Assembly: GCA_031292215.1 (NCBI GenBank)
Contig: JARLHO010000102.1
Location: 1 to 64,000, forward strand
DNA length: 64,000 bases
Source: Syntrophobacteraceae bacterium
GTDB taxonomy: Bacteria; Desulfobacterota; Syntrophobacteria; Syntrophobacterales; Syntrophobacteraceae
Direction of reading: 5' to 3'
The notes beneath the pieces were generated by a model. The model worked only from the letters and a program-made list of their open reading frames with translations. It ran no database searches and was not told the DNA's origin. A program made the position numbers and the translations under genes. This document shows positions 11,157 to 43,977 of this stretch, one piece after another (position 1 is the stretch's first letter; the number at the start of each line of letters is the position of its first letter).

Positions 11157-11261
11157 CCGAAGGGGGATTATCTATACACTTTTTTGATACCCCTCTTTGC
11201 GCCAACGCAAATCGCATATCGGTGGCCCGGAGCTAAAGACCTCGAAATGAAAGGAGGAAGT

Positions 11262-12647: not shown

Positions 12648-12666
12648 ACCGATGCGAGGTGATATC

Positions 12667-22730: not shown

Positions 22731-24497
22731 ATGAGTGACAAAGTCTATTTCGTCGACCAGACCATCCGGGATGCTCAACAGAGCCTTTGGGGTCTGATGA
22801 TGAGCACCGAAATGATACTTCCTATAGCGGAGCTCATGGACCGGACAGGGTATAGAGACATCGCCACGGTCGGTTCCCAGGCGTTCACCGTAGAGGTGCG
22901 AAACCTCAACGAAGACCCCTGGGAGAGGATAAGGGTCCTTTCCAAACTCATCACCAAGACCCCGCTTCGCGGCTCCTACCAGATCGGCAGCCTTTCATCG
23001 TTCGATCTAGGCACGCCGCGCGACATCATAGCCCTCTGGATCAAAAGATCGGTTGCCAACGGGGTCCGTGCTTTCTGGATTTGCGATTACCAGGACGACA
23101 TGGAAAAATTCGTCTATTTCGCGCGCATAGCAAAGGCGGAGGGCGCCGAGATCGTGCCGGCCCTGATGTACACCTCCAGCCCCGCTCACACCGGCGAGCA
23201 CTGGGCGTGCAAGACGCGGCTATTGTTGGAGGCCAAAGATTACATAGACCGGATCATGATAGAGGATGCCTCGGGAGTAATAACCCCGGAGGACACCCGT
23301 GAGCTGGTAACCACGGTGCGGCGCAACTGCGAGGGACTGCCCATCGAGTTCCACAGCCACTGTAACACGGGTCTTGCCCCGCTTTGCTACCTGGAAGCGG
23401 TTAAAGCGGGCGCGATGACCCTTCATACGGCGGTCGCGCCCCTTGCCAACGGCACCTCGCTTCCGTCCACTCAAAGCGTTCTCAAAAATATTCGCCGACT
23501 GGGGTTTTCCTCGGACATAGACGAAGATGCGCTGGCCCACGTATCGGAGCATTTCAGAAAAATCGCAGAAAAAGAAGGGTTGCCCATGGGCACGCCCCTG
23601 GAATACGACCTCTTTCACTTCGAGCATCAAGTTCCTGGCGGAATGATGACCAACTTCACTCGGCAACTGAGGGAAGTGGGGATGGAAGACAGGCTGGACC
23701 AAATCCTGGAGGAGACCATCCTTGTGCGCAAGGAACTGGGATACCCGGTCATGGCCACACCTTATTCTCAAATCGTGGGCGTCCAGGCTTTGGAGCATGT
23801 CATATCAGGCAAGCGTTACGGGCAGATAACCGATGAGGTAATAAAGTACGCTCTTGGCTACTATGGGGAGCCGATTGTCCCTGTTGACAGCAACGTTATG
23901 GACAGGATCATGAGTTATCCCAGAACCAGGGAATTTTTGAACTGGAAGCCGGAAGGATACCTCAAATCGGTCGAAGAATTTCGAAGGGAACTCGGCGCGG
24001 AACTCTGTGATGACGACCTGCTTCTAAAGATACTAATTCCCGGAAAACCCGTGACAAGGAACAATCCAAACGGAAAACCCGCAGCGCCCGCGGTCCGGGA
24101 ACCTGGAAAGACCGCAGGAAGCGATTTTCCTACCTCATTTAGTGTGGAAGTAGATGGTGACGTATTCAGCGTCAGGATATCCCCTGTATGGAACGGCACG
24201 GAACAAACCTCGGTATCCTTCCATGCAACTTCTGGAGAGACTTCAAAAGGCGAGACGGGACAGGAAACACCGCCTCCCGGGGCAGTGCTTTCGGGCATGT
24301 CGGGACTGGTGCTTTCCATCGAGGTAAAGATTGGCGACCTGATAGCCATGGGTGATTCCCTGGCGATGATCGAGGCAATGAAGATGCGAAGGCACCTGGG
24401 AGCCCCGCACAGCGGAGTGGTAAAAGAAATTCGCGCAAAAGAAGGCGACATTGTGAACCCTCAAGACATTCTCCTTGTGGTGGCGCCAAATGATTAG
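22731..24497 (+). CDS. Biotin-dependent carboxyltransferase, PycB/OadA-like with altered active site
   Basis: 588 aa: a DRE-TIM carboxyltransferase barrel (about residues 1-300), the conserved PycB helical domain, a Pro-rich linker, and a biotinyl domain with Lys551 in EAMKM. Conserved active-site residues are Asp9, Arg13, Asp14 and Gln17 (DQTIRDAQQS), His208 and His210 (EFHSHCNTG) and Thr242 (GTSLPST). Two key ones differ. The carbamylated metal-ligand Lys of IKDMAG is Glu178 in IEDASG, and the pyruvate/oxaloacetate-binding Arg of LLRGxN aligns with Gln84. So the carboxyl acceptor is probably not pyruvate. The biotin carboxylase gene overlaps by 8 bp. No OadB/GcdB-type pump subunit is present. 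Confidence 0.85.
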   Translation: MSDKVYFVDQTIRDAQQSLWGLMMSTEMILPIAELMDRTGYRDIATVGSQAFTVEVRNLNEDPWERIRVLSKLITKTPLRGSYQIGSLSSFDLGTPRDIIALWIKRSVANGVRAFWICDYQDDMEKFVYFARIAKAEGAEIVPALMYTSSPAHTGEHWACKTRLLLEAKDYIDRIMIEDASGVITPEDTRELVTTVRRNCEGLPIEFHSHCNTGLAPLCYLEAVKAGAMTLHTAVAPLANGTSLPSTQSVLKNIRRLGFSSDIDEDALAHVSEHFRKIAEKEGLPMGTPLEYDLFHFEHQVPGGMMTNFTRQLREVGMEDRLDQILEETILVRKELGYPVMATPYSQIVGVQALEHVISGKRYGQITDEVIKYALGYYGEPIVPVDSNVMDRIMSYPRTREFLNWKPEGYLKSVEEFRRELGAELCDDDLLLKILIPGKPVTRNNPNGKPAAPAVREPGKTAGSDFPTSFSVEVDGDVFSVRISPVWNGTEQTSVSFHATSGETSKGETGQETPPPGAVLSGMSGLVLSIEVKIGDLIAMGDSLAMIEAMKMRRHLGAPHSGVVKEIRAKEGDIVNPQDILLVVAPND

Positions 24498-25968
24498 AAA
24501 GATTTTAATAGCCAACCGCAGTGAAATAGCCATTCGGATAATGCGGGCATGTCGGGAACTTGGGATAATTTCCGCCGGCATATATTCGGAGGCGGATAAG
24601 GATGCTTTGTTTACGGGATACGCCGATGAGGCCTATTGCATCGGGCCCGCGCCGGCGTCTTTGAGCTACCTGAATATCGACAAGGTTATCGAGGCTGCCC
24701 AAAAGAGCGGAGCAGACGCTATCCACCCCGGGTACGGCTTTCTTGCCGAGAATGCAAAATTTGCTCTGGCCTGTGAAAAGGAAGGCCTGACGTTTATCGG
24801 GCCATCTAGCCGAGTCCTCGAACTTATGGGTGACAAAGTGGCTGCGCGCAGGGAGATGATCAAGGCCGGAGTTCCGGTGGCGCCGGGATCTGAGGGGTGT
24901 GTATCGGAATTTGGCGATGCCCGCCGAATTGCGGCGCAAATAGGCTATCCCGTCATCATCAAACCCTCGGGCGGCGGGGGCGGGATTGGAATGACCGTTG
25001 TTTTTGAGGATCGCGAACTCGAAAAAGCTTTGGAATCCACACAGGCGATTGCCGGCACTACTTTTGGCCTTGCGGACGTATTTATCGAAAAGTACATGGA
25101 AGACCCGAGGCATGTGGAGTTTCAGATTCTTGGGGACTCCAAGGGGGAAGTCGTTCACCTGGGGGAGCGTGAATGCTCCATTCAGCGAAGACACCAGAAG
25201 CTTATAGAGGAATCGCCCTCAACCGCCCTAAATGAGAAACTTCGCAAGGAAATGGGGGACGTGGCGGTCACCGCCGCTAAATGGGTGGGCTACGAAGGGG
25301 CGGGAACGGTCGAGTTTTTGCTCTCAGGCAGGACATTTTACTTTTTGGAAGTTAACGCCCGGGTACAGGTCGAACACCCGGTGACGGAGATGGTAACGGG
25401 AATCGATATCGTAAAGGAGCAAATAAGAATCGCATCGGGACTTCCCCTTAAAATGACGCAGAAAGACATCCGTATCAATGGCAGCGCCATCGAATGCCGG
25501 ATCAATGCGGAAGACCCTCTTAATGACTTTGTGCCAACGCCGGGCAAGATAAGGAATTATCACTGTCCGGGAGGCGCCGGGATAAGAGTGGACAGTGGAG
25601 TTTACACCAATTACACGATCCCGCCTTACTACGACCCCATGATATCTAAACTTATCGCGTGGGGCGCCGACCGCAGTGAAGCCATCGCGCGGATGCGCAG
25701 GGCGCTTTATGAATATGTGATCACAGGGGTCAAGACCAACATCGCGTTTCATAAAGCGGTCATGGAAAACCAACGATTCATAGACGGCAAGTTGGGAACG
25801 CATTTCATAGAGCATGAGACCACGCTTAACGAAGATATGAAGGCGATAGCCGAGCGGGAAAAACCATTAGAGGAAAAGCTGTACAGAGGGTTGGAGGAGA
25901 AAAAGAAAGTGGCCGCGATCGCAGCGGTTGGGGCGGTCACACAGATGCGCTTGAGGGGGCGCAAATAA
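24490..25968 (+). CDS. Biotin carboxylase (AccC/PycA type)
   Basis: ATP-grasp biotin carboxylase of 492 aa; it carboxylates the biotinyl domain of the preceding protein using ATP and bicarbonate. All landmarks are present: IRKILIANRSEIAIRI, HPGYGFLAEN, the Gly-rich lid KPSGGGGGIGM, HVEFQILGD, ERECSIQRRHQK, EVNARVQVEHPVTE and the FVPTPGKI block. The start ATG 24490 lies inside the end of the upstream gene (8-bp overlap), showing translational coupling. The C-terminal Ala-rich extension (KVAAIAAVGAV) resembles PycA-type stand-alone subunits. Confidence 0.93.
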   Translation: MIRKILIANRSEIAIRIMRACRELGIISAGIYSEADKDALFTGYADEAYCIGPAPASLSYLNIDKVIEAAQKSGADAIHPGYGFLAENAKFALACEKEGLTFIGPSSRVLELMGDKVAARREMIKAGVPVAPGSEGCVSEFGDARRIAAQIGYPVIIKPSGGGGGIGMTVVFEDRELEKALESTQAIAGTTFGLADVFIEKYMEDPRHVEFQILGDSKGEVVHLGERECSIQRRHQKLIEESPSTALNEKLRKEMGDVAVTAAKWVGYEGAGTVEFLLSGRTFYFLEVNARVQVEHPVTEMVTGIDIVKEQIRIASGLPLKMTQKDIRINGSAIECRINAEDPLNDFVPTPGKIRNYHCPGGAGIRVDSGVYTNYTIPPYYDPMISKLIAWGADRSEAIARMRRALYEYVITGVKTNIAFHKAVMENQRFIDGKLGTHFIEHETTLNEDMKAIAEREKPLEEKLYRGLEEKKKVAAIAAVGAVTQMRLRGRK

Positions 25969-26130: not shown

Positions 26131-27726
26131 ATGGTGAACATGTCGGTGCCGAGGGTATTGGGCGAATTACTGGCTGACAGGGTTAAAAGAAATTCCGAGA
26201 AAGTCTTTCTGCGGTTCAAGGATCAAAGTATCACCTACAAGGAAATCGATCTTTATTCCAACCGATGCGCCAACGGATTTTTGAGCATGGGGATAAGCAA
26301 AGGGGATAAAGTAAGCATAATGCTGAACAACTGCCCGGAGTTTATCTATACCTGGTTTGGTCTTGCGAAGATCGGCGCGGTCGAAGTCCCGGTCAATACG
26401 AATTACAAGGGTGAGTTTCTCCGGCACATTGTGGACCAGTCGGATTCGAAGATTCTTGTTATAGGGAGTGAATACCTGGAGCGTGTGAAGCTGATCCAGG
26501 ATTCATTAGGAAAACTCACGAAGATAATCGTTATGGGGGAAGTGAAAGATGAGCAAAAGGAGGGGCTTCGCATACACCTGATGAGTTTCGACGAATTGTT
26601 CGCGGGCTCTAACGCCCCCGTTGATGTAACAGTAGAGCCCAGGGACCCCATAAGCATCATCTATACTTCCGGAACGACCGGCGTTTCCAAGGGGGCCCTG
26701 GGATGCCACAATTTCTGGATGGTTGTGACGGAAAAAATGCTCGATCACCGTGACGGAAAACAGGATGATATCTTTCTTACCTTTTTGCCTCTCTATCATT
26801 TCAACGCCCAAGTTCTGACGACCCTCACAGCGCTTGTGGCGGGGGCGCAGATGGTGCTCATGGACAACTTCAGCGCCTCCCGTTTCTGGGATGATATCCG
26901 CCACTATGGAGCAACGCAATTCAACTACCTGGGGGCGGTTATGCCCATACTGGCAAAGCAGCCGGAAAAGGCAAACGACGCTGAGAACCCGGCCCGAATC
27001 GGTCTTGGGGCGGGATGTCCCCCGGCTGTCATGGAGGAAGTCGAGAAAAGATTTGGAATCAAGTGTTTGGAAGGCTTTGGAATGACGGAGATCGGCATCC
27101 CGGTGCACGTAAGGGTTGACGACAGGCGCCTCGGTTCCTGCGGCAGGCCTATGGACGTATACGAGATAAAGCTTTTTGACGATGAGGACCGCGAGGTGGC
27201 GGTGGGAGATATCGGAGAGATCGTATTTCGGCCGCGCGAACCTTTCCTGATGATGTCGGAGTATTACAACATGCCGGAGAAAACCCTGGAGGCCTGCCGA
27301 AACCTGTGGTTTCACACGGGCGACCTGGCGAAAAAAGATGAAGACGGGTACCTGTATTTTGTGGACAGGAAAAAGGATGCCCTGCGCAGAAGGGGTGAAA
27401 ACATTTCCTCGTTCGAGGTGGAAAGAGCGATCAACAGACATCCGAAGGTCCTGGAATCGGCGGCCGTGGCAGTAAAGTCCGAACTCGCGGAAGACGAAGT
27501 GAAAATATGTGTGGTTCTAAAACCTGGAGAGACCCTGTCCCCGGAGGAGTTGATCACCTATTCGGTCGAGCGGATGCCTTATTTCGCCGTGCCTCGCTTT
27601 GTGGAATTCATGCAGAGTTTGCCTAAGACCCCGACTGAAAGAACGCAGAAATACCTTCTGAAGCAGGCTGGAGTAACAACAAACACCTGGGACCGGGAAA
27701 AGGCCGGGATCAAGGTGACAAGGTAG
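26131..27726 (+). CDS. Acyl-CoA synthetase (AMP-forming), CaiC-like
   Basis: ANL-superfamily ligase, 531 aa, forming an acyl-AMP and then an acyl-CoA. Visible motifs: the P-loop YTSGTTGVSKGA (about residues 178-189), EGFGMTEIG (A5-type motif), the WFHTGDLAKKDEDGY hinge block and RRRGENISSFEVE (A8). The catalytic Lys region near the C-terminus reads PKTPTERTQKYLLK; the usual PKT..GK..K pattern is modified. The start follows AGGAG (26121-26125). It lies between the biotin carboxylase and UPF0261 genes on one strand, suggesting it activates a carboxylic acid intermediate. Closest by eye to crotonobetaine/carnitine-CoA ligases; substrate unknown. Confidence 0.88.
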   Translation: MVNMSVPRVLGELLADRVKRNSEKVFLRFKDQSITYKEIDLYSNRCANGFLSMGISKGDKVSIMLNNCPEFIYTWFGLAKIGAVEVPVNTNYKGEFLRHIVDQSDSKILVIGSEYLERVKLIQDSLGKLTKIIVMGEVKDEQKEGLRIHLMSFDELFAGSNAPVDVTVEPRDPISIIYTSGTTGVSKGALGCHNFWMVVTEKMLDHRDGKQDDIFLTFLPLYHFNAQVLTTLTALVAGAQMVLMDNFSASRFWDDIRHYGATQFNYLGAVMPILAKQPEKANDAENPARIGLGAGCPPAVMEEVEKRFGIKCLEGFGMTEIGIPVHVRVDDRRLGSCGRPMDVYEIKLFDDEDREVAVGDIGEIVFRPREPFLMMSEYYNMPEKTLEACRNLWFHTGDLAKKDEDGYLYFVDRKKDALRRRGENISSFEVERAINRHPKVLESAAVAVKSELAEDEVKICVVLKPGETLSPEELITYSVERMPYFAVPRFVEFMQSLPKTPTERTQKYLLKQAGVTTNTWDREKAGIKVTR

Positions 27727-27819: not shown

Positions 27820-29052
27820 ATGGGCAAAAAGATTGTGGTGCTGGGTACGATGAACACAAAGGGGGAACAGTTGCAGTTCCTCAAAGAAGAGATCGCCTCC
27901 CGGGGTCACGAGGCTCTATTAATGGATCTTAGCATGGGAGGTCACTCAGATATTGAGGCAGATATCGCCCCTCAGGAAATCGCTCAACTAATGGGGAGGA
28001 ATTTCGAGGAGTTGACGTCCTCAAAAGATCGCGCAGCGGTAACGGACATCATGAGTTCGGGTGCTATACAAAAGGCACTGGAGCTTCTGTCCAGGGACTG
28101 TCTGCACGGCATTGTGGCCCTGGGCGGTTCCACCATGGCGCTCATGGGTTCGCAGGTCATGTCGAAGCTTCCCTTCGGAATACCCAAAGTCATCGCCACC
28201 CCGGCGGCCATGCCAGTGTATGTGGGGACATGGTTCGGGGCGACGGATATCTCCGTCATGCAGTTGATTATGGAGATAGCCGGCATGAACGATCTCATCA
28301 AAAATGCCATCGGCCAGGTCGCGGGCGCTGTAACGGGAATGGTGGAATGTGCATTGGACTACAAAGTGCTCAAGCTTCCTTACCCGTCAATTGCGGTGAC
28401 GGAAATCGGGTTTTCCGACCAATGCGCCAAGCATGTGGAAAAGCTTCTGGAGACAAGGGGCTATCACGTTTTCCCATTTCATGCCCAGGGAACGAGCGAT
28501 CGAGCAATGGACAGGCTTATCTCCCAGGGTTTTTTCGACGGGGTGGTGGAGATAGTTCCGGCGGGCCTGATCGAAGCCAGATTCAAGGGGAACAGGGCGG
28601 CAGATATGACAAGGCTCGACGCGGCCGGCGAAAGAGGCATCCCGCAGGTGTGGGCGCCGTGCTGCTTTAATTTGACAGGGGCCGGTCCGACGAGATTTAA
28701 CAGGGAAAAGTACCTGGCTTCAGGCAAAGTGCTGCCGATCGATCAAATGAGAGCCATGGCGCGATTTCCTGTTGACGAAATGCTTGTCGGAGCACAACTC
28801 TACGCCGAAAAAATCAACAAAGCCAAAGGACCTTTTAAGTTGGTCGTACCGCTTAAAGGCTGGTCTTCCTTGGACGGTCCGGGAAGTATCCTTCACGACC
28901 CCGATGAAGATCGCCTCTTTATCGACGAGCTGAAAAAGAATTTAAAAAACCAGGTGGAAATTGAAGAGGTTGACGCAAACCTCGAGGATGCGGCTACGGC
29001 CCTGGCATTAGTCAACAGCCTGGATGCAATGATGAACGTAGGGAAATCCTGA
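27820..29052 (+). CDS. Tm-1-like ATP-binding / UPF0261 protein
   Basis: 410-aa cytoplasmic protein of the UPF0261 family, related to the N-terminal domain of tomato Tm-1. Characteristic pieces are IVVLGTMNTKGEQLQFLKEEI at the start, GIVALGGSTMALMGSQVM, GATDISVMQLIMEIAGMN, FPFHAQGTSDRAMD, and a C-terminal PLKGWSSLDGPGSILHDPDED. Bacterial members often sit beside PEP-mutase-like or carboxylase genes, but their reaction is not established. It belongs to the forward-strand cluster carboxylase - ligase - UPF0261 - phosphohistidine protein. Confidence 0.88.
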   Translation: MGKKIVVLGTMNTKGEQLQFLKEEIASRGHEALLMDLSMGGHSDIEADIAPQEIAQLMGRNFEELTSSKDRAAVTDIMSSGAIQKALELLSRDCLHGIVALGGSTMALMGSQVMSKLPFGIPKVIATPAAMPVYVGTWFGATDISVMQLIMEIAGMNDLIKNAIGQVAGAVTGMVECALDYKVLKLPYPSIAVTEIGFSDQCAKHVEKLLETRGYHVFPFHAQGTSDRAMDRLISQGFFDGVVEIVPAGLIEARFKGNRAADMTRLDAAGERGIPQVWAPCCFNLTGAGPTRFNREKYLASGKVLPIDQMRAMARFPVDEMLVGAQLYAEKINKAKGPFKLVVPLKGWSSLDGPGSILHDPDEDRLFIDELKKNLKNQVEIEEVDANLEDAATALALVNSLDAMMNVGKS

Positions 29053-29277: not shown

Positions 29278-30975
29278 ATGGAAACGCAGAATAGTTCAAA
29301 GATATGGGACAACATCCCTGGTTTCGACTATGATGAAAGTATCGATTTGCCGGAGTTGAGTTCCTGGTTCTGGGATGGAACACACAGTATGCCCCTGCTT
29401 ACGCCTATGTTCTCATGGTTTTGGATCAGGCATTGTCCGCACGGGTCTATGTACGCCGCTGAAATCCTGAGTACGCCGAGAAACAAAGGCTTTGCAATGA
29501 GGGATTACAAGGGCGGCACCTATATCGGCATGCACATTATTCGAGATGAGAAGGAGATAGAGGAGCGCACCGTTAAGTTCAAACGGGCGATGCTGCCGTG
29601 GATAGAGGACTTCGACGGTATATGGAAAGGCCAAAGGGAAGAACTGCTGGGGTTATACGAAAAGCTCAAAGCGGTCGACGTGGACAAGGCTTCCAACATG
29701 GAACTCGTCCACCATCTCTGGGACATGATCAGTACGAATCGAAGGATGTGGGAAATACATTTTCAGGGCATGACCGTCTCGTATACGGCCTTCATGCTGC
29801 TCGAGGACCTGGTAAAGCCCTTCGGGCTGACAAGCGAAAGCGTCGAGTTCCAGAATATGTTCCGTGGCTTTGACAACATGGTATTTCAAGTGGACAAGAA
29901 ACTCGCCGGTCTCGCCAAGGATGCACGGGCAATGGGGCTGGCCGATATTATTCTGAACACGCCGACCGGGGAGACGATCGGGAAGCTCCAACAAACCGAA
30001 TCCGGCAAACAGTGGCTCAAGAGCCTGCACGATGTTTTGGAAGTCGACGGCTGGCGCATGGTTCGAATGATGGATTTCAATGAACCTTACTGGCTGGAAG
30101 AGCCCAGTACAGTGCTTTCGCCCATCAAGGCCTTTATAAAGAAAGGCGGAGACTTCGACCTCGACGAAGTACGAAACAGGTTAACGATGGAGAGGGAAAA
30201 AGCTATCAAAAGCGTACTGGAAAAGGCGGCGCCGGAGAGAAAGTCCCAATTTAACGCCCTTATCAACCTGGCCGGCAAGGCCGGGTCTTACAGTGAGGAA
30301 CATGATCTTTTCTGCGAGCTTGCCTGCCATGCGGTGACTCGCCGGGGACTTCTAGGGATTGGGAGACGGTTGGCTGCGGCCGGGACCATAGACAGCCCCG
30401 ATGATGTATTTTTCCTCAATCCCGACGAAGTCGAAAGAGTACTTGGCGCCCCGGAATTTCATAAAATACAATACATTGCCGGAAGAAGGCGCAAGAGTTG
30501 GGAAGAGGTCAGACTGCAGGGCGTGCCCGCTGTCTTCACGGTTCGAACGGGGTTGCAGGAGGCGGTAGGAATGGACCTCATCCCTTCGGCTGATCCTATC
30601 ATCATCAAGATAGTCGTAGGTGAACTGCCCAGAGTAAGGCATGAATTGAAGGCCGACATTTACGGGGTGTGTGGTTCACCGGGGGTCGCCGAAGGACCGG
30701 CGCGCGTAATCATGAGTTACGAGGAACTGGACCTGGTCCAGAAGGGGGAAATTCTCGTTTGCCCGGGGACCAACCCTGCATGGTCTCCGGTGTTTGGACT
30801 GGTCGCGGCCGTGGTTTCCGACAGGGGCGGGACACTCAGTCACACTGCCATTGTGGCCAGAGAGTACGGGATACCCACACTCGTCAACACATTTACAGCA
30901 ACCGCGACGATCAAGACCGGGCAGAGGATAAGGGTCGACGCGACCGAAGCCGCACTGTATATTCTGGACAAATAA
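29278..30975 (+). CDS. Phosphohistidine (PEP-utilising mobile domain) subunit, phenylphosphate-synthase-like, copy 1
   Basis: 565 aa. The C-terminal 100 residues are the swivelling phosphohistidine domain of PEP synthase-type enzymes: GVCGSPGVAEGPARV, then GGTLSHTAIVARE with the catalytic His522. The N-terminal 440 residues are helical and begin with SSWFWDGTHSMPLLTP, which I recognise as similar to the large subunit of phenylphosphate synthase. There is no ATP-grasp domain and no PEP-binding TIM barrel, so it needs a separate ATP-binding subunit, probably the one at 31966-32991. A paralogue lies at 33004-34686. The start follows AAGGAG at 29264-29269. Phosphoryl transfer to an alcohol or phenol is inferred. 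Confidence 0.8.
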   Translation: METQNSSKIWDNIPGFDYDESIDLPELSSWFWDGTHSMPLLTPMFSWFWIRHCPHGSMYAAEILSTPRNKGFAMRDYKGGTYIGMHIIRDEKEIEERTVKFKRAMLPWIEDFDGIWKGQREELLGLYEKLKAVDVDKASNMELVHHLWDMISTNRRMWEIHFQGMTVSYTAFMLLEDLVKPFGLTSESVEFQNMFRGFDNMVFQVDKKLAGLAKDARAMGLADIILNTPTGETIGKLQQTESGKQWLKSLHDVLEVDGWRMVRMMDFNEPYWLEEPSTVLSPIKAFIKKGGDFDLDEVRNRLTMEREKAIKSVLEKAAPERKSQFNALINLAGKAGSYSEEHDLFCELACHAVTRRGLLGIGRRLAAAGTIDSPDDVFFLNPDEVERVLGAPEFHKIQYIAGRRRKSWEEVRLQGVPAVFTVRTGLQEAVGMDLIPSADPIIIKIVVGELPRVRHELKADIYGVCGSPGVAEGPARVIMSYEELDLVQKGEILVCPGTNPAWSPVFGLVAAVVSDRGGTLSHTAIVAREYGIPTLVNTFTATATIKTGQRIRVDATEAALYILDK

Positions 30976-31011
30976 CAACTGCATAAAGATTGTGCAGTAT
31001 CATAGCGCTCG

Positions 31012-31052
31012 AAATACACGATCAGGGCCGGCAAGGCCCTGATCGTGTATTT
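31012..31052. terminator. Strong bidirectional terminator with an 18-bp perfect stem
   Basis: Positions 31012-31029 and 31035-31052 are perfectly complementary around a 5-nt loop (ggcaa). The stem is flanked by A-runs on the left and T-runs on the right, as expected for an intrinsic terminator working in both directions. It lies exactly between two convergent transcription units. Confidence 0.88.
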
Positions 31053-31094
31053 TATTATAAATAACCGATATGTGTCGCCCGGAAAGGCTTTGAT

Positions 31095-31754
31095 TTAGAA
31101 TTTTTTCATCATCTGGTCAACGAGATAGGGTACCTCCACCCTTCCGGTGGGAGCCAGAACCCGGCTGCTGTAATCGGTGGCGTACTTGTTTTTGATTGTT
31201 CTCATCAGTTTTCTGTAAAGAGAGGTATCGACGGCATCGGCTACGGTGGCGATGTTTCTGGCCGTACATTCGGCCAGAATCCTGGGGCCGCTGCCGATGA
31301 TAAGCCGCCAGCCTCCCGTAAGGGGAATTTTCAATTCTTCGAGTGTCGGCATGCACTCTTCCTTGATGAACTTCAAATGCTCTTCTTCCATCCCCCTCAA
31401 GATGTTGTAATGATGATTGAATTTTACGACGCCGGTCTGGACCCTGTAGGGGGTTTGCTGAATACGGCCCGAGGGAGCAAAGACTTTGTTGGAATAATTC
31501 CAGACATATTCGAGCAGCCTGGAGGAAAGAAGCTGATACTCCCTGGAAGAAATGGTATGGCGCAGATTCTCCGCTTCGTCAACGGTTGACAAGGCCACAA
31601 TCCTTGGACCTTCCCCAATCTTCACGTAATAGCCCCCCACCAGGGGTATTCCCATTTTATACATATTCGGGATATAGTCGGCGCCGATGAATGTTACGTA
31701 ATCATCGTATTTGCCGGGCATGACATCCCAGAATTGGGCAAACAGAATGGACAT
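31095..31754 (-). CDS. Tandem-duplicated dimeric alpha-beta-barrel protein
   Basis: 219 aa made of two related halves of about 105 residues. The first has QFWDVMPGKYDDYVTFIGADYIPNMYKMGIPLVGGYYVKIGEGPRIV; the second has HHYNILRGMEEEHLKFIKEECMPTLEELKIPLTGGWRLIIGSGPRIL. Both end with a YxxNKVFAPSGR / YSSRVLAPTGR block. This looks like an internal duplication of a NIPSNAP/ABM-type ferredoxin-like domain, making a one-chain barrel. It is the last gene of the reverse-strand cluster with the dikinase subunits, so a ligand-binding or helper role in the same pathway is likely. No catalytic residues are recognisable. Confidence 0.6.
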   Translation of the reverse strand: MSILFAQFWDVMPGKYDDYVTFIGADYIPNMYKMGIPLVGGYYVKIGEGPRIVALSTVDEAENLRHTISSREYQLLSSRLLEYVWNYSNKVFAPSGRIQQTPYRVQTGVVKFNHHYNILRGMEEEHLKFIKEECMPTLEELKIPLTGGWRLIIGSGPRILAECTARNIATVADAVDTSLYRKLMRTIKNKYATDYSSRVLAPTGRVEVPYLVDQMMKKF

Positions 31755-31795
31755 GTTGTCTCCTTTTATAATCGTTCACAACGAAGTCACATCTT

Positions 31796-31901
31796 TTCCT
31801 TCGTGCTCTTCGAGTTCTTCGTGGTTGACTTTTGCCCCGCAAGCCTGAGCGGACCGAAGGATTAAGATTCAACCACGAAGAACTCGAAGAACACGAAGGA
31901 A
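31796..31901. repeat. 33-bp inverted repeat of the CCACGAAGAA..CACGAAG type
   Basis: Arms 31796-31828 and 31869-31901 are complementary over 33 bp with one mismatch, separated by 40 bp. Similar CCACGAAG.. sequences recur at 47252-47334 in this window. It lies in the 211-bp gap between the ATP-grasp gene and the barrel-protein gene of one strand, so it may act as an intra-operon attenuator or mRNA stabiliser, or be a small interspersed repeat. Confidence 0.75.
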
Positions 31902-31965
31902 GTGTCAGGAGGCGGGCTAAAAAGCCGCGGGGTTCTTTGTGGAGAACGATTACCTCCTTTTGGAC

Positions 31966-32991
31966 CTAAATTTCGAATATGCGTGTCATAAGCTCGGCAA
32001 GGTATTCGGATTCATTTTCTTTGGCCTTGATATATTTAGCGGGTCTTGCCTGGACCCAGTATAAGTTGTCGGGGCAACACATCGAGCAATCCAGAACCCA
32101 TTCCATATCCTGAGGGCTTTGGAAATAGGATTCCACTTCTTTGGCAATCCGTACAATTTCATTTAATTCTTCAGAATCCAGGCAAGCCTTGTTTTGAATC
32201 TCCAGAGGAACGTCGGTGGTGATCGTCCCCGAGTCGTTATAGACTACCATTTTTGTCTTCTGATTGAGCGTGCACTCAACGCAGCCGTTGTTCTTATCGA
32301 CAACAAACAGATCGGGATTGATTTCACCGCTGACTACGCTTTCACCCAGTCCCCAGTTTCCTTCCACCACGACTTTGGACATATCCCCGGTAGTGGGCTG
32401 GACGGTTAAAACTACCCCGGCCGCTTTGGCCTCCACCATCTTCAGTACCGCAACGCCTATGGGGGCCTTTTCCACAGCCATTCCCTTCTCCAGGCGGAAG
32501 GATATTGCGCGGGTCGTAAAGGCGCTTCCCCAGACCTGAATCACCTTGTGGACGACCGCCTCCCTGCCTCGCACGTTGAGGTAGGTCTCCATTTGTCCCG
32601 GCATGCTGACCGCACCGCTCGAACGAACGGCAACGGCAATTTCCCCGCCTCCAGCCAGTTTTTTCAAGTCATCATAATACTGGAACAGTTCTTCTCGCAT
32701 GCCGTCGGGCATCTTTTTCGACTCGACAATATTGCGAATGGTCTCGCTCGCTTTCACCTGGTTCTTAATGCTTTTCAAATCATCGAGGTGCTGTTCAACA
32801 TATCTGCGGATGTCCTCTCCGGCCCCGGTTTCAGCCATGAACCGCTCGTAGCCGTCCACCGAGATTGCAAATCCGGGAGGGATTCTCATGCCCAGTCGAG
32901 TCATTTCACCCAGGTTGGCGCATTTTTTACCCACCAGTTCATTGTGTCCACTGCTGATTTCCTCAAACCAGTAAAGCCATTTTTCGCTCAT
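31966..32991 (-). CDS. ATP-grasp (PEP/pyruvate dikinase N-terminal) subunit
   Basis: 341 aa, a stand-alone nucleotide-binding domain of the PEP synthase/PPDK type. Features: GKKCANLGEMTRLGMRIPPGF at the N-terminus, VAVRSSGAVSMPGQMETYLNV (about residues 117-137), WGSAFTTRAISFR, the glycine-rich WGLGESVVSGE block, and the C-terminal QDMEWVLD...YWVQARP. The VSMPG loop is like PPDK rather than the longer AEDLP loop of PEP synthase. No phosphohistidine or PEP domain is fused. The start ATG 32991 follows GGGAG; the upstream phosphohistidine gene ends 12 bp away. Together they match the two-subunit core of phenylphosphate synthase. Confidence 0.85.
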   Translation of the reverse strand: MSEKWLYWFEEISSGHNELVGKKCANLGEMTRLGMRIPPGFAISVDGYERFMAETGAGEDIRRYVEQHLDDLKSIKNQVKASETIRNIVESKKMPDGMREELFQYYDDLKKLAGGGEIAVAVRSSGAVSMPGQMETYLNVRGREAVVHKVIQVWGSAFTTRAISFRLEKGMAVEKAPIGVAVLKMVEAKAAGVVLTVQPTTGDMSKVVVEGNWGLGESVVSGEINPDLFVVDKNNGCVECTLNQKTKMVVYNDSGTITTDVPLEIQNKACLDSEELNEIVRIAKEVESYFQSPQDMEWVLDCSMCCPDNLYWVQARPAKYIKAKENESEYLAELMTRIFEI

Positions 32992-33003
32992 GAACGTCAC
33001 TCC

Positions 33004-34686
33004 CTAGCTACCCATAATGAACGCAACGCCGAGATTTGCATCCACCTTGAGTCGCTGGCCTGTCCGTATCTTCGATGTACCGCCATTTACGTTCATCAAT
33101 ACGGGGATCCCGTATTCCCTGCCAATAACGGCCGCATGGGAAAGAATGGCCCCACGTTCGATGATGACCCCCCTTATCATCGAGAAGACCGGGGTCCAAT
33201 TGGGGGAGGTAGCCGCGGCCACGAGGATTTCCCCCTCCTCGACGAGATCAAAGTCATCTTCGTTCAGGATTACCCTTGCCCTGCCTTCGGCCACACCGGG
33301 AGAACCGCAAGTCCCATAGAGGTCGGCTTTCAGTTCCGGCCTTACCTGCGGCATGGTCCCCACCACCACCTTTAGAGCGAGAGGGTCCATGGATTGGAGC
33401 AGGAGTTTGACCGCCATATCCATGTCAAAACCTTCTTTGAGCAGGGCAGAGGGGTTGGGGGACTGCTGCCATTCCTGCCACTGGGCCTTTCGACGCTCGA
33501 CGATGTGACGCAAGTCGAACTGGTCGGGATTTATTCCTGCTCTGCGAATTTCATCGGGTATGAGAAAAAAGACATCGTCGGGTTCTGCTATAGCTCCTTT
33601 GGCGGCAAACCGCCTGCCGATTCCGAGCACGGAGCGGCGGACAAGAGCGTGCATGTACAGGTCCAGGTAGAGGTCGTGCTCTTCGCTAAAAACACCGCTC
33701 TTCTGGGCCAGGACCATCAACCTCTGGAACCAGCTTCGCTGTTCGCCGGGCACTTTGGCCAGAACGGCTTTTTCGGCTTCCTGACGCTTTCCGGAGAGCC
33801 TTGCGCGCTCTTCGTCGAGATTGAAGTTTGCTCCCGTTCTTAAGAATTGCCTGATGTTTACCAGGGGGGGGGTAGGCTCTTCGAGCCAGGTAGGCATGTT
33901 GATCTCGGCCATTCGTTCCATGCGCCAGCCTTCAAGATTCATGAGGGCCATGAAATCTTTCAAAAATTTCCGGCCCTTTACCGTTTGTTCGAGCCTGGCC
34001 TTTATTTCGGAAGGCTTACCGTCGAGGAACGCACCGGCCAGGCCCTCCTCGCGAACTCTTTGGGAGAACTCCCACAGTTGACGGTTGAGTTGGAAGACTT
34101 TGTTGTCAAATCCGGTGACCAGGGCCTGAAAGACAGGGGATGTATCGTCTATTTCGGCCAGGTCGCGACACATATTTTCGAAAAGAACATAGGCGACATA
34201 AGTGCCGTAGATCATGAGCATGTGTATTTCCCACATGCGGCGGCACGTATTTATGGTCTCTTCAAAGTTGTCCAGGAGTTCGATATTGGACGCATGGTCG
34301 AGATCGAGGGCTTTCAGATTCTCGTAGCGCCCCACCATCTCCTGGATATACCCGTCCCATATCCCGTCATAGTCCTGGATGAAAGGGAGGATGGCATGAC
34401 GGAATTGGATCTGTCTATTATGCATTTCTTCCAGGGACTTGGGCTGCAATACGCACCAGTAGCCGCCACCCCGGTGAAAACGCCAATCCCAGCCCTTGAT
34501 GGTCGGCAGGCTCAATTTTTCCGCCCCGTACTGCATGCCGTGACGACAGAGATTTACCCAAAACCAGCCAAACATGGGGGTCCAGGGGGGCACCGAATGA
34601 GTGCTGTCCAGGAACCAGTAAGGGGAGTGTTCAAAATCGCTCTGAGGATCGAATTCCAGCGCGGGCACAACATCATAGACCTTCAT
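33004..34686 (-). CDS. Phosphohistidine (PEP-utilising mobile domain) subunit, phenylphosphate-synthase-like, copy 2
   Basis: 560-aa paralogue of the protein at 29278-30975, alignable along its whole length. Shared blocks are the N-terminal PYWFLDSTHSVPPWTPMFGWFW, the mid-region CRRMWEIH, EGWRMERMAEINMPTWLEEP, FSEEHDLYLDL, RRSVLGIGRRFAAKG, and the C-terminal swivelling domain CGSPGVAEGRARV with catalytic His517 in GAILSHAAVIGRE. It has no ATP-grasp or PEP-binding domain of its own. The ATP-grasp gene follows directly, so the two products should form a dikinase that transfers the beta-phosphate of ATP to an organic hydroxyl group. The acceptor is unknown; phenol is only one option. Confidence 0.82.
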   Translation of the reverse strand: MKVYDVVPALEFDPQSDFEHSPYWFLDSTHSVPPWTPMFGWFWVNLCRHGMQYGAEKLSLPTIKGWDWRFHRGGGYWCVLQPKSLEEMHNRQIQFRHAILPFIQDYDGIWDGYIQEMVGRYENLKALDLDHASNIELLDNFEETINTCRRMWEIHMLMIYGTYVAYVLFENMCRDLAEIDDTSPVFQALVTGFDNKVFQLNRQLWEFSQRVREEGLAGAFLDGKPSEIKARLEQTVKGRKFLKDFMALMNLEGWRMERMAEINMPTWLEEPTPPLVNIRQFLRTGANFNLDEERARLSGKRQEAEKAVLAKVPGEQRSWFQRLMVLAQKSGVFSEEHDLYLDLYMHALVRRSVLGIGRRFAAKGAIAEPDDVFFLIPDEIRRAGINPDQFDLRHIVERRKAQWQEWQQSPNPSALLKEGFDMDMAVKLLLQSMDPLALKVVVGTMPQVRPELKADLYGTCGSPGVAEGRARVILNEDDFDLVEEGEILVAAATSPNWTPVFSMIRGVIIERGAILSHAAVIGREYGIPVLMNVNGGTSKIRTGQRLKVDANLGVAFIMGS

Positions 34687-34761: not shown

Positions 34762-36396
34762 CTATTGGCTAAGTCCATAGTCGGTCCTGATCTTCTGATA
34801 GCAGTTGTAGGAACATCCCCTGCCGGTGCCGACGCCGTTATGTGTGGCCGCCGAGCAGATGTAGACGTTCTCGATGGGGGTCCTGTAATTGGAAAGCTCT
34901 GGGGTGGGTCGAAATCGATCCATCTGGGAGACCACCATGTCCCCAAGGGCGATGGAGCCCTGGTGCATGTTGGGCCTGCGCTGTTCTATGTCGTAGGGCG
35001 TGAAAACCCGGCAGCCAATAATATTGTCCCTGGTCATGTTGGGAGCGTATATCTGCCACTGCTTGATTATGGAGTCCTCAAATTCTTTCCTGAGTTCCTG
35101 CCACCTGGCGGCGGAGAAAAACCGCGAGGGGGCGGCGAATTCTTCCACCCCAATCATATGTTTGCCCTCTGGAACTCTGGACTTGTCCCAGATACTGTCG
35201 GGACCGATAAACATGAAGAGCTTACTGCCGATACCGTTTACGAGTATCTCGGAAAGATATTGGTTTGCCATGTAGTCGGCGTTGCGCGGCCCCATGTAGA
35301 GCCGGGGCTGCGGCCCGCAGTCCGGGTTGAAAGAGGCGGCCTTGTACTCTGGCAGTTCGTGCATGGCAAAGACCGCCCAGATAATATTGTGCCGGTTGTA
35401 TCTAATGTTTTTGACGCGTTTTACGATCTTGCGGTCCAGGTGTTGCTCGCCGATCATTTCCACGGTTTGAAGGGCGCTCAGGCCGCTCACCACCAACTGC
35501 TTTGCTTCTATCTCGGTACCGTCGCCGAGTCGGATACCCCTGGCCTTTTGGTTTTCGGTCAGGATCTTCATCACTTCGCTCCGGACGAAAAACTCTCCCC
35601 CCATTTCGATGAAAGCCTCCTGGAGTGCGTTGGTAACGCTCTGGCTCCCGCCTTTGGCTATGGCCGCGGGCTCCCAGGAAAGAACCAGGCCGAGTGAATG
35701 GATCAAACCGTGCAGGCCGATCACATCATCTGGGGCGCCGCCAAACGAGGTCATGGCGGCACGCATGAAAAGAGTTCTTAGTTCTTCGCTCTCAAAAAGG
35801 TCATAGGCCAGTTGCTGGCTGGTCATGAACTGATGGATCGGTTCGATGCCGCTTTTGGTATCGTCGCACAGCTTCTCCAGTTCGTTTTTCTGTCCCCAGG
35901 GCACGGGCAGGTTGAAGCGGTACGTTCCGAAAGCGGATTTCCACTTTTTTAAATAGTTTTCAAACATTACCTCCGCTACCGCGGCATCGTTAGTTGAAAA
36001 GCGCGCTATTTCATTCAACGTTTTCTGCAGGTTGTCGTGGGAAATCTCGGTTCTTCCCGTTACGGGATCGACCACCTTGAGAGCGGAGTAGCCTACGAGG
36101 CAGGTATCGTTGTCGAAGACCATGGCTTCGCTCTCATCGGGGAAAATATATTCGAGCCCTCTTTGCTTGAGATTGAAGTCCGTGTAGGCCGGGTGGCCGT
36201 AGAAGCGCGTCCAGTTGGCCCCCGGGTTCAACCGAAAACCCGGTAGCGGGCCGGTTTCACTCGTTACGGCCCCCCCCAGCTTGGAGGCGAGTTCGAAAAT
36301 GGCCGTCTTCAATCCGGCCCGTTGCAGGTAGCATGCCGTTATAAGACCATGGTGTCCTCCACCAACAACAATTGCGTCGTAGCTTTTGTCCGCCAT
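34762..36396 (-). CDS. FAD-dependent oxidoreductase, CrtI/PYROXD2 type, copy 1
   Basis: 544-aa flavoprotein. The N-terminal Rossmann motif reads AIVVGGGHHGLITACYL, followed by an acidic residue at the end of beta-2 (TAIFELASKLGG). The C-terminal FAD block is CSAATHNGVGTGRGCSYNCY. Phytoene desaturase-like enzymes catalyse saturation/desaturation or isomerisation of hydrophobic substrates. No signal peptide is present. Upstream is an SDR gene, downstream the dikinase subunits. A paralogue at 40490-42127 sits next to the ETF genes, which suggests ETF as electron acceptor for one or both. Substrate unknown. Confidence 0.87.
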   Translation of the reverse strand: MADKSYDAIVVGGGHHGLITACYLQRAGLKTAIFELASKLGGAVTSETGPLPGFRLNPGANWTRFYGHPAYTDFNLKQRGLEYIFPDESEAMVFDNDTCLVGYSALKVVDPVTGRTEISHDNLQKTLNEIARFSTNDAAVAEVMFENYLKKWKSAFGTYRFNLPVPWGQKNELEKLCDDTKSGIEPIHQFMTSQQLAYDLFESEELRTLFMRAAMTSFGGAPDDVIGLHGLIHSLGLVLSWEPAAIAKGGSQSVTNALQEAFIEMGGEFFVRSEVMKILTENQKARGIRLGDGTEIEAKQLVVSGLSALQTVEMIGEQHLDRKIVKRVKNIRYNRHNIIWAVFAMHELPEYKAASFNPDCGPQPRLYMGPRNADYMANQYLSEILVNGIGSKLFMFIGPDSIWDKSRVPEGKHMIGVEEFAAPSRFFSAARWQELRKEFEDSIIKQWQIYAPNMTRDNIIGCRVFTPYDIEQRRPNMHQGSIALGDMVVSQMDRFRPTPELSNYRTPIENVYICSAATHNGVGTGRGCSYNCYQKIRTDYGLSQ

Positions 36397-36448: not shown

Positions 36449-37192
36449 CTAATGCATGACCCTGCCGCCGTCCACCAGAAGTACTTGCCCCGTGATGAAG
36501 TCACTGGCTTCGGAGGCGAAAAATATTAGCGCCCCAAAAAGATCGGGGGCTTGCATAAGGCGCCCCATGGGCGTTTTCGTGGTGTCGTATCTAGTAACAT
36601 CCGCCAGCGATCTGCTCGATTCGCTATCTGTAAACCCGGGTGCAATGGCGTTTATGGTGATGTTGTGAGGTCCAAGTTCGATCGCCAGAGACCGGGTCAG
36701 TCCGACGACTCCCCCTTTGGAGGCAACGTAGTGGACAAACCCGTGAGAACCGGTGAAAAAAGTCTCCGAGGCAAGATTGATGATCTTCCCCTTCTTTTGC
36801 TCTCTCATGTACGGGAAAACGGCTTTAGTGCAGAGCCATGGGCCTTTGAGGTTTACCGCCATCGTTTTGTCCCACTCGACCGGATCGATCTCGTAGAAGG
36901 GTTTGCGCACGAGGCCGAGCACAATGGCGGCGTTGTTGACCAGTATGTCGATCTTTCCGAACGTACGGACGGTCTCCGCTACGGCAGCGGCAACTGCCCG
37001 CGGATTGGTGATATCTGCCTCGATGCCTTTTGCAACCCCGCCCTGGCTCGATATCTGCGCCACCACCTCATGCGGGTCGGCGACGTCGATCACCGCAATG
37101 CTCGCGCCCTGCCTGGCCAGAGCTGTGCAAAACTCTCTGCCCAGTCCTTTTGCGCCTCCTGTTACTATAGCAACTTTATCCTTGAGCTTCAT
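36449..37192 (-). CDS. SDR-family NAD(P)-dependent dehydrogenase
   Basis: Classical short-chain dehydrogenase, 247 aa. NAD-binding TGGAKGLGREF (TGxxxGxG), an Asp after beta-2 (AVIDVADP) favouring NAD(H), NNAAIV, the catalytic Tyr/Lys in HYVASKGG, and the C-terminal ITGQVLLVDGG. It probably oxidises a secondary alcohol or reduces a ketone. First gene of the reverse-strand cluster SDR - flavoprotein - dikinase subunits - barrel protein. Confidence 0.9.
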   Translation of the reverse strand: MKLKDKVAIVTGGAKGLGREFCTALARQGASIAVIDVADPHEVVAQISSQGGVAKGIEADITNPRAVAAAVAETVRTFGKIDILVNNAAIVLGLVRKPFYEIDPVEWDKTMAVNLKGPWLCTKAVFPYMREQKKGKIINLASETFFTGSHGFVHYVASKGGVVGLTRSLAIELGPHNITINAIAPGFTDSESSRSLADVTRYDTTKTPMGRLMQAPDLFGALIFFASEASDFITGQVLLVDGGRVMH

Positions 37193-38731: not shown

Positions 38732-38787
38732 TCTGACAACTCCTGTGGGAGAGCCGGCCGGCAATGTTGTTCGAAACTGGAGCAGGA

Positions 38788-39360
38788 ATGAAGAATCTGT
38801 TGTTTGTGTGTGTCAGAAACCGCGTCAGGAGCCCTTTCGCCGAGTTTGTCTTTAGAAAGATGCTACAGGAAAGGTCCGAGGGGTCGGAGCTGGGGATAAG
38901 GGCCTTTTCCGCCGGGTTCCACCCCCCCGTATTGCGCGAACTATTGGCCGGGAAGGGCGTCGAACCGCCCGAGCATTTATATGGCGTACCTATGAGCGCA
39001 CCCACCCTGAAAGAACTCGCAAACAGGGGTATAAGTCCTCCTGAAGGCTGGAGGTCTAAAGAGCTGGTTCCAGACGACGTGCGCAATTCCAATTTGATCA
39101 TTGTAGCGCTTATGGAGCAAAAACAGGAACTGATTAGTATCTATCCCGAGGCCCTGGGCAAGGTGTTTACCACCCGTGAGATCTCGGGGCGGCAAAAACC
39201 TCTCACCCACGAGGTGTTCTCAATCCTGCCCTTCGACGATACGTTCTGGTGGTTTTGCGAGGAGAACCCGGATTATGTGGGCACGGTGCTCTCGGAGATG
39301 GAAGAGGTCCTGATCGGCGGTTTTCACACAATCCTTCGCCATCTTGGAACAGAGGCATGA
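38788..39360 (+). CDS. Low-molecular-weight phosphatase-like protein with atypical P-loop
   Basis: 190 aa. The N-terminus MKNLLFVCVRNRVRSPFAE is the phosphate loop of LMW protein-tyrosine phosphatases and arsenate reductases: Cys8-x5-Arg14-Ser is intact, but the usual Gly-Asn pair (CxGNxCRS) has become Arg-Asn. The protein is about 40 residues longer than typical members, with an insertion around residues 55-85 (EHLYGVPMSAPTLKELANRG). An Asp pair in LPFDDTFWW could provide the general acid. I choose ATG 38788 over 38764 because the fold starts there. Substrate unknown; it could dephosphorylate a pathway intermediate. Confidence 0.7.
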   Translation: MKNLLFVCVRNRVRSPFAEFVFRKMLQERSEGSELGIRAFSAGFHPPVLRELLAGKGVEPPEHLYGVPMSAPTLKELANRGISPPEGWRSKELVPDDVRNSNLIIVALMEQKQELISIYPEALGKVFTTREISGRQKPLTHEVFSILPFDDTFWWFCEENPDYVGTVLSEMEEVLIGGFHTILRHLGTEA

Positions 39361-39550: not shown

Positions 39551-40348
39551 TCAACAGGCGGTCCACCCGCCATCTACGACAAGCGTTTGACCGGTCATAA
39601 AAGAAGAGGCTTCCGATGACAGGTAAAGCAATAATGCGTCCAGGTCCTCGACTTTACCGTTGCGCTTTAGCGGTGTTGAATTGATGATTTGCTCGGAGCG
39701 TTTTCTTGCAACTTCTTCATCCTGGATCGAAAGGCGCTCCCGCGCGATATTGGTGCCCTCAAACCACCCGGGGGCTATTGCATTGACCTTGATTCCGTCA
39801 CCCGCATATTCCAGGGCGGCTTGTTTAGTGAGCCCGATCAATGCATGCTTGGCAGCTATATAGCTGGCCCTGGGGTTTAACTCCGGGCGCAACCCCACAA
39901 TGCCCAGTATGGATGTGATATTGATGATCGCTCCTGCCTGCTGCCTGACCATCATCCGCAGTTCGTGCTGCATGCACATGAACACGCCTGTCAAATTTAT
40001 GGAAATAAGGCGGTTCCAGTCCTCGATCGGTATTTCGTGGAACCGGTTGGGTTTGTGGGTAATCCCGGCATTGTTCACCGCGATATCGAGTCGACCGAAT
40101 GCAGAAGCAATTTCATCCATCAGCCCGGCTACATCGACCGGGATCGACATGTCGCCGATCACGCTGAGAATTTTTCCGCCGTACTGCTTGAGGCTCTCCT
40201 CTGTTTCATTGAGACCCTCAAGGTTTCTGCCGGTAATGATCACATCGGCCCCGGCCTCGGCCAGGGTTTTGGCAAACCCGCGCCCCAGCCCGGAACTGGC
40301 TCCCGTGACCAAAGCCGTTTTCCCCTGAAGATTGAAAATGTTTTCCAT
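39551..40348 (-). CDS. SDR-family oxidoreductase (3-oxoacyl reductase/gluconate dehydrogenase-like)
   Basis: 265-aa classical SDR: TGASSGLGRGFA at the N-terminus, NNAGITHKPN, catalytic Ser in NITSILG, Tyr/Lys in YIAAKHALIG, and a C-terminal MTGQTLVVDGG. The residue after beta-2 is Arg (TGRNLEGL), suggesting NADP(H). The start ATG 40348 lies nine bases after AGGAG; the ATG at 40357 is too close to it. It follows the flavoprotein gene of the ETF cluster by 141 bp on the same strand. A role in the same catabolic route is inferred. Confidence 0.9.
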   Translation of the reverse strand: MENIFNLQGKTALVTGASSGLGRGFAKTLAEAGADVIITGRNLEGLNETEESLKQYGGKILSVIGDMSIPVDVAGLMDEIASAFGRLDIAVNNAGITHKPNRFHEIPIEDWNRLISINLTGVFMCMQHELRMMVRQQAGAIINITSILGIVGLRPELNPRASYIAAKHALIGLTKQAALEYAGDGIKVNAIAPGWFEGTNIARERLSIQDEEVARKRSEQIINSTPLKRNGKVEDLDALLLYLSSEASSFMTGQTLVVDGGWTAC

Positions 40349-40489
40349 GGAATGCATCTCCTGTGTTCACCCGCGGATGATTTTCGCCCGGCGGGAGATT
40401 GCGAAAAATTTCGCTCCAAGGGTGGGATGGAGGCAGGGAAAGGGGGCCTTCCCCCTGCAGGCGAAAAGACCCCTGCCTGCGCCTGATTA

Positions 40490-43965: not shown

Positions 43966-43977
43966 CCTATCTTCTCC

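Follow-up and report, generated by a model that had tools for sequence, protein, structure and literature searches.

Split, dikinase-like proteins at a two-operon locus of a Syntrophobacteraceae bacterium: a little-known branch of phenol-activating kinases

We analyzed a 64,000-nucleotide stretch of DNA from an uncultured, anaerobic Syntrophobacteraceae bacterium (GenBank assembly GCA_031292215.1, contig JARLHO010000102.1; hereafter the window), in which two genes encoding phosphohistidine acceptor proteins, called A and B here, lie on either side of a terminator together with a gene for a stand-alone ATP-grasp protein. We find that the locus is real and somewhat unusual, and that it represents a little-known branch of phenol-activating kinases. 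Judged by sequence, A and B belong to the general class of two-component small-molecule dikinases (PpsAB, CreHI, HpeHI), and they probably attach phosphate to small hydroxyl compounds. The reading that we favor, with reasonable though not high confidence, is that they are dikinases that phosphorylate catabolic hydroxyl (or enol) compounds, for carboxylation in the case of A and for flavin-dependent oxidation in the case of B.

RESULTS

A and B resemble two-component dikinases but form a separate clade

An earlier note on this DNA, made from the letters alone, had described A and B as paralogous swivelling-His proteins without the TIM barrel that binds phosphoenolpyruvate (PEP), and this description holds: in a Pfam scan both proteins match PF00391 only, and PF02896 is absent from A, B and the ATP-grasp protein. 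The catalytic histidine of A stands in RGGTLSH (His522), and the longer SDRGGTLSH matches the dikinase motif T/S-x-x-G-G-x-x-x-H, which goes with replacement of the regulatory Thr; that of B stands in RGAILSH (His517), and IERGAILSH has Ile at the T/S position and Ala at the second Gly. Two residues before this histidine both proteins have Leu, and PpsA, CreH and HpeH have Met. An N-terminal WF-D--H block is common to A, B and the three reference proteins, and the resemblance to the large subunit of phenylphosphate synthase that the note had pointed out is thus real. Moreover, all 73 acceptors, PpsA, CreH and HpeH included, have the residues that correspond to H161, E340 and H342 of A, and 66 of them have H36. 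Confident AlphaFold models of A and B (predicted local distance difference test 92, predicted template modelling score 0.90) have rifampin phosphotransferase (RPH) as their best solved fold match (Foldseek E 2e-20 and 4e-19, TM up to 0.70), and RPH is likewise the nearest structural relative of HpeH (PMC12167813).

The note had called this a split dikinase of the phenylphosphate-synthase type, which is correct as to style but not as to family. In a maximum-likelihood tree of 73 acceptors, PpsA, CreH and HpeH split off (100/100, branch 1.69) from a family made up of A, B, the third acceptor of this genome, C (contig 6), and a D group, so that A and B fall outside the clade of the PpsA reference. 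The tree program flags long branches at this split, but the identity values agree with the split: A and B share 24-26% of their residues with PpsA, CreH and HpeH, compared to 43-46% within that set. The reference identities were assigned from gene neighborhoods: the PpsA gene, on a plasmid of Azoarcus KH32C, adjoins ppcBDAG and UbiX; the CreH-like gene of Rhodococcus oxybenzonivorans adjoins a P450; and the HpeH-like gene of Rhizobium adjoins genes for a biotin carrier protein (BCCP), biotin carboxylase (BC), carboxyltransferase (CT), HAD phosphatase and CoA ligase.

Profile searches of the three proteins, suggested earlier as a check, returned PEP-utilising families (PF00391, PF01326). Among curated models, A and B come closest to those of PRK08296, named "hypothetical protein". 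On one of them A reaches 155 bits and B 136 bits, where the reference PpsA reaches 1300 and the cut-off is 723; their best scores on any of these models are 253 and 204 bits (cut-off 578), and the CreH-like and HpeH-like references score 1160 and 772 bits. A and B form a separate clade, score far below every PRK08296 cut-off and go with another type of ATP-grasp loop (see below); membership in phenylphosphate synthase is therefore not supported.

Relatives of the same architecture are found in other anaerobes, specifically in 32 of the 395 genomes of the phylum that were sampled (~8%), and the locus is thus neither a chance arrangement nor an assembly artefact. The clade is also represented in Chloroflexota, Bacillota and Actinomycetota.

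The ATP-grasp subunit has a short loop and pairs with B

In 53 of 53 aligned ATP-grasp sequences of the clade, including that of the window (four locus pairs in this alignment are the same contig counted twice), the nucleotide loop is six residues shorter than in the known phenolic kinases and resembles that of pyruvate phosphate dikinase (PPDK). Readings such as SMPGQMET, SHPGQYET and SRPGMFET follow the pattern S-(M/H/R)-P-G, and the PPDK-like proteins of this genome are also short-looped (e.g., SMPGMMDT). PpsB, CreI, HpeI and their relatives carry a long loop, ATAEDLPGASFAGQQDT or similar; this PEP-synthase-type loop, typical of PpsAB, CreHI and HpeHI, is absent from the window's ATP-grasp subunit. 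This motif tells PEP synthases and PPDKs apart, and every phenolic kinase characterised so far has the PEP-synthase form (PMC12167813); beyond that paper, the literature consulted gave us no statement on the role of the loop in PPDK. One exception to the pattern is an Anaerolineales locus (L067), at which a B-clade acceptor adjoins a long-loop, Pps-type ATP-grasp gene. Release of pyrophosphate (PPi) by the short-loop subunit is a testable possibility. The genome also encodes a membrane H+-pyrophosphatase, which speaks only weakly for PPi release because such enzymes are common.

The ATP-grasp and acceptor trees match in branching: in the first, the window's protein pairs with the copy at locus L048, just as in the second B does with the L048 acceptor, and A-type acceptors elsewhere have an ATP-grasp clade of their own (L060, L061, L064, L065). 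By phylogeny and operon, the window's ATP-grasp protein is thus the partner of B. In this genome, which is 97% complete, the three acceptors A, B and C face just two stand-alone ATP-grasp genes. Both of these belong to the B/C type, and no ATP-grasp partner of the A clade was found. A genome of the same genus (G007) has the same surplus of acceptors, and in the single-contig genome G062 there is a single stand-alone ATP-grasp gene to two acceptors. In the single-contig genome G395, however, an ATP-grasp gene adjoins each acceptor; we therefore take dedicated pairs to be the rule, and reject a shared ATP subunit as a general one. The earlier proposal that one ATP subunit serves both acceptors is reduced to a plausible use of B's subunit by A, suggested by what is absent from draft genomes. 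More than one hydroxyl substrate, as the note had also suggested, is likely. Sharing is mechanistically possible, since HpeH and HpeI form no stable complex (PMC12167813). A PEP-utiliser match elsewhere in the genome (C13) proved to be enzyme I of the phosphotransferase system. As a separate observation, three A-type acceptor genes come after a single ATP-grasp gene within 13 kb of locus L060 (643-13503).

The operon of A encodes a biotin-dependent carboxylase

A and the ATP-grasp and B genes are convergent, tail to tail across the perfect 18-bp stem of the terminator that the earlier note had placed between them. Thus two predicted operons (same strand, close spacing), not one, meet there. 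The plus-strand order is CT-BCCP, BC, AMP-forming CoA ligase, UPF0261 and A; the minus-strand order is short-chain dehydrogenase 1 (SDR1), CrtO-like flavoprotein, B, ATP-grasp and NIPSNAP, where B and the ATP-grasp gene are 3 bp apart, stop to start codon. Farther upstream of the minus-strand cassette lie genes for an Fe-S oxidoreductase, EtfA, EtfB, a second CrtO-like protein (CrtO2) and SDR2. The ATP-grasp protein is stand-alone, as the note had said, but its start needed correction: the gene begins with GTG at 33000, and 32991 is an internal ATG.

The note had also remarked that no UbiD-type carboxylase is adjacent, which is so (the single UbiD gene of the genome lies on another contig), but it had missed the neighboring biotin-dependent enzyme. 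The operon ending in A includes genes for a biotin-dependent carboxylase, a homologue of the hydroxyacetophenone (Hpe) carboxylase, so that the locus does have a neighboring carboxylase, although not a UbiD. A different species of the same genus has this gene order too, up to and including A (L046, 74-86% identity). Against catabolic carboxyltransferases encoded on plasmids the CT subunit shows 38-47% identity, and against OadA 29-32%. In the alignment, the Arg of the LLRG motif, which in pyruvate carboxylase binds the pyruvate carboxylate, is replaced by Ile in the window's CT and by Thr in HpeB. With this position lost and OadA so distant, an identity as pyruvate carboxylase or oxaloacetate decarboxylase is disfavored, and the sequence makes it unlikely that CT-BCCP is a pyruvate carboxylase.

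A relative of the CT gene in Pseudomonas putida YC-AE1, a bisphenol A degrader, adjoins genes for an HpeE-like CoA ligase, a Tm-1-like (UPF0261) protein, BC, BCCP and a HAD phosphatase. Genes of the UPF0261/Tm-1-like kind are found repeatedly next to split dikinases, in several clades, as well as beside the Hpe-type carboxylase on the YC-AE1 plasmid. This recurrence likely points to a step of its own in such pathways; our literature search turned up no role for UPF0261 in catabolism. Another kinase-carboxylase arrangement was seen on plasmid pRB98 of Rhodococcus oxybenzonivorans (L164, 1023-12771), where genes for a 183-aa swivel-only protein, a 525-aa protein and a 579-aa protein with ATP-grasp and swivel lie near biotin carboxylase, thiolase and tyrosine phosphatase genes.

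Neighbor genes differ between clades

We counted neighbors within 8 kb of acceptors at the other loci (B-type, 32; D-type, 25; A-type, 11), leaving out the window itself. B-type acceptors lie near NIPSNAP (24/32), SDR1 (22/32) and CrtO (20/32) genes, with a CT or BC gene in 1/32; D-type acceptors lie near CT or BC (11/25) and UPF0261 (12/25) genes, with CrtO and NIPSNAP each in 0/25. NIPSNAP was found near none of the 36 A- or D-type acceptors. Since the neighbor sets differ between clades of one family, they serve as an internal control. The A-type contexts are mixed: a carboxylase is present in the window, in G007 and at L066, and the set of CrtO2, SDR2 and low-molecular-weight (LMW) phosphatase-like protein is present in G395 and G255; the window combines the two. 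SDR2 accompanies an A-type acceptor and CrtO2 at L064, L160 and L162, and in the last two, from two genomes other than that of the window, the phosphatase-like gene is there as well. The genomic-context survey that had been proposed revealed conserved catabolic modules; a ppc/UbiD gene was found within 8 kb of 0/68 A, B and D acceptors.

The NIPSNAP-like protein, whose gene is tightly conserved behind B-type ATP-grasp genes, may stand in for PpsC as a third subunit, although it has no homology to PpsC. The CrtO-like pair belongs to the same COG family as the limonene dehydrogenase CtmAB (PMC4109377); searches of plasmids for a Ctm reference yielded none, only generic matches of 25-28%, and we treat the likeness to CtmAB as a lead.

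Features of the locus

Coordinates are collected in Table 1. Elsewhere in the window, a serpin gene lies at 47357-48565 (full-length Pfam match, E 5e-105), and a gene for a DUF3141 protein (8829-11156) lies immediately 5' of genes for a phosphate acetyltransferase-like protein and an acetate kinase (11184-13848).

Table 1. Genes and terminator of the split-dikinase locus, with positions in the window
Feature	Position	Strand	Remarks
CT-BCCP (carboxyltransferase fused to biotin carrier), HpeB/XccC-like	22731-24497	+	PF02436, HMGL-like, Biotin_lipoyl
Biotin carboxylase (BC) subunit	24475-25968	+	Biotin_carb_N/C, CPSase_L_D2; 45% to BC of Rhizobium Hpe cluster
AMP-forming acyl-CoA ligase	26131-27726	+	PF00501/PF13193
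UPF0261/Tm-1-like protein	27820-29052	+	PF06792/PF23189
Acceptor subunit A	29278-30975	+	565 aa; swivel phospho-His and substrate-binding; His522; PF00391 at C-terminus, E 6e-21
Bidirectional terminator	31012-31052		perfect 18-bp inverted repeat, 5-nt loop, then T-rich stretch
NIPSNAP-like protein	31095-31754	-	219 aa; PF07978 match slightly below cut-off; 3' of ATP-grasp gene
Stand-alone ATP-grasp subunit	33000-31966	-	344 aa; GTG start; PF01326 only, E 2e-83; short PPDK-like loop
Acceptor subunit B	33004-34686	-	560 aa; His517; PF00391 at C-terminus, E 4e-20
CrtO/phytoene-desaturase-like flavoprotein	34762-36396	-	Amino_oxidase, CrtO models; kept beside B-type acceptors
Short-chain dehydrogenase SDR1	36449-37192	-	PF13561
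LMW phosphatase-like protein, candidate phosphatase	38764-39360	+	PF01451; CX5R(SP) intact
Short-chain dehydrogenase SDR2	39551-40357	-	PF13561
Second CrtO-like flavoprotein (CrtO2)	40490-42127	-	
EtfB, EtfA, membrane Fe-S oxidoreductase (electron outlet)	42188-46107	-	PF01012, PF00766, CCG/Fer4; kept with some B-type acceptors

DISCUSSION

In HpeHI, PpsAB and RPH, the beta-phosphoryl group of ATP passes to a histidine, which swivels and transfers it to a hydroxyl group, with release of AMP (PMC12167813). We infer the activity of A and B, their substrates, the order of steps and the use of B's ATP-grasp subunit by A along these lines. The ATP-grasp subunit would bind ATP and offer it to the swivelling His522 or His517, which would take up the beta-phosphoryl group and swing to the helical domain where the same subunit binds its substrate; the phosphohistidine would then phosphorylate a phenolic, alcoholic or enolic hydroxyl of a catabolic substrate, and AMP would leave. 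For A, we envisage that the substrate is phosphorylated, then carboxylated by the biotin-dependent enzyme and joined to CoA by the acyl-CoA ligase, both encoded in the operon of A, which would be the logic of the Hpe pathway in an anaerobic setting. B, whose conserved cassette also includes CrtO-like flavoproteins, SDR, NIPSNAP and ETF, would act on a second substrate; there the phosphorylated or a neighboring compound would probably be oxidised without oxygen, and the CX5R phosphatase-like protein may take the phosphate off later. Anaerobic aromatic catabolism is the likeliest setting, since the genome encodes BamA of the benzoyl-CoA pathway (541.9 bits; curated cut-off 464.45), although alicyclic or terpenoid substrates are possible, given the CrtO-like proteins.

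Several points weigh against this proposal. A and B are only ~25% identical to assayed dikinases, and we know of no assayed member of the A, B, C or D clades. HpeB and PycB retain the Lys of IKDMAG that is carbamylated, but in the subclade of the window's CT this residue is Glu, and the substrate or chemistry of CT-BCCP may therefore differ from that of HpeCBA. Among the scanned neighbors of the A operon we found neither an HpeD-type HAD phosphatase nor an HpeF-type hydrolase (the CX5R protein and UPF0261 are candidates in their place), and only 2 of the 11 A-type acceptors at other loci have a carboxylase within 8 kb. Moreover, the CrtO-like proteins belong to a broad family.

The proposal gains shape from comparison with known systems. 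HpeHI, encoded with HpeCBA in Rhodococcus rhodochrous GD02 (PMC9618137, PMC12167813), shares with our locus the split into acceptor and ATP-grasp proteins, the N-terminal block, the invariant residues, and a neighborhood that contains an AMP-forming CoA ligase as well as a biotin-dependent carboxylase whose carboxyltransferase is of the HMGL type. Unlike the Hpe system, the locus described here has acceptors of another clade, a short loop, BCCP fused to CT, UPF0261 in the operon, and two acceptors to one ATP-grasp gene, and it comes from an anaerobe. The 4-cresol kinase CreHI (Corynebacterium, Rhodococcus) is, like B, a split dikinase beside an oxidising enzyme and an SDR, but it is only about 24-26% identical, and oxidation in the Cre system is aerobic and P450-based, where here there are CrtO-like flavoproteins and ETF. 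PpsAB(C) of Thauera and Aromatoleum is also a split dikinase with the FWF-D--H block, from which a phosphohistidine mechanism would be expected here too; A and B, at 25% and 24% identity, differ from it in clade and loop type and in having neither PpsC nor a UbiD carboxylase.

It is nonetheless conceivable, if quite unlikely, that A and B are phenylphosphate synthases proper (or phenylphosphoamidate synthases), which phosphorylate phenol or aniline and supply a UbiD-type carboxylase whose gene lies at another place in the genome. The shared architecture and N-terminal block would fit, and so would the presence of one UbiD, together with BamA, in the genome. There is precedent in the sulfate reducer Desulfatiglans anilini, which draws carboxylase subunits from separate loci and whose Pas-alpha is ~27-28% identical to Pps-alpha (PMC7500099); Pas, which we liken to A and B by description only, has a short acceptor subunit distant from PpsA, but it works with UbiD-type carboxylases. 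However, the separate clade, the scores of 155 and 136 bits where PpsA has 1300, and the lack of ppc/UbiD genes near the 68 acceptors all argue otherwise. Moreover, two further species of the genus carry a true PpsA alongside clade A/B proteins, and no CBS protein, such as the PpsC subunit, is found among the scanned neighbors. Much less probable still is an antibiotic or secondary-metabolite phosphotransferase (RPH-like) or ligase (PigC/RedH-like). RPH is the best solved fold match, with a similar substrate-binding and swivel domain fold, and there are weak NCBIfam matches to RPH, PigC and RedH, but these are far below their cut-offs (RPH, 118 vs 999 bits). All three proteins are single chains with a fused ATP-grasp domain, RPH has an antibiotic substrate and only ~20% identity to A and B, and the genes around A and B are of a catabolic kind (carboxylase, CoA ligase, ETF, dehydrogenases); we saw no cluster for resistance or biosynthesis. 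The benzene "Magic" cluster and BzS1, for which the literature mentions phenylphosphate synthase, are different genes.

A different question is whether the kinases that we propose are phosphate-dependent, such that the ATP-grasp subunit moves the gamma-phosphate of ATP to orthophosphate and gives off PPi, usable by the membrane pyrophosphatase. We regard this variant as a tentative one that deserves notice but is on balance doubtful. The loop argues for it, since it is uniformly short in the clade and discriminates PEP synthases from PPDKs (PMC12167813), but it is the only pointer to phosphate dependence: the link between loop and phosphate use is correlative, the rest of the ATP-grasp domain scores best with PEP synthase models, and the B-clade acceptor of L067 has a long-loop neighbor. 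The full version, a modular PPi-forming dikinase in which one ATP-grasp donor charges at least two substrate-specific phosphohistidine acceptors, one of which feeds a biotin-dependent ketone carboxylase and one an O2-independent flavoprotein oxidation, with PPi recovered by the membrane pyrophosphatase, seems to us unlikely.

As dikinases for catabolic hydroxyl compounds, A and B would extend a class of two-component enzymes that has so far been defined from few aromatic pathways. The A/B/C/D clade is a deep sister group, apparently without an assayed member, and has a different loop type in nearly every neighboring ATP-grasp gene. Our analysis corrects the impression of a carboxylase-free locus, and the clade points to at least two conserved modules of anaerobic activation, one that joins the kinase to a biotin carboxylase and one that joins it to CrtO-like flavoproteins. 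If the loop does mean PPi release, activation of an inert hydroxyl would be cheaper for energy-limited anaerobes than the known activation of phenol.

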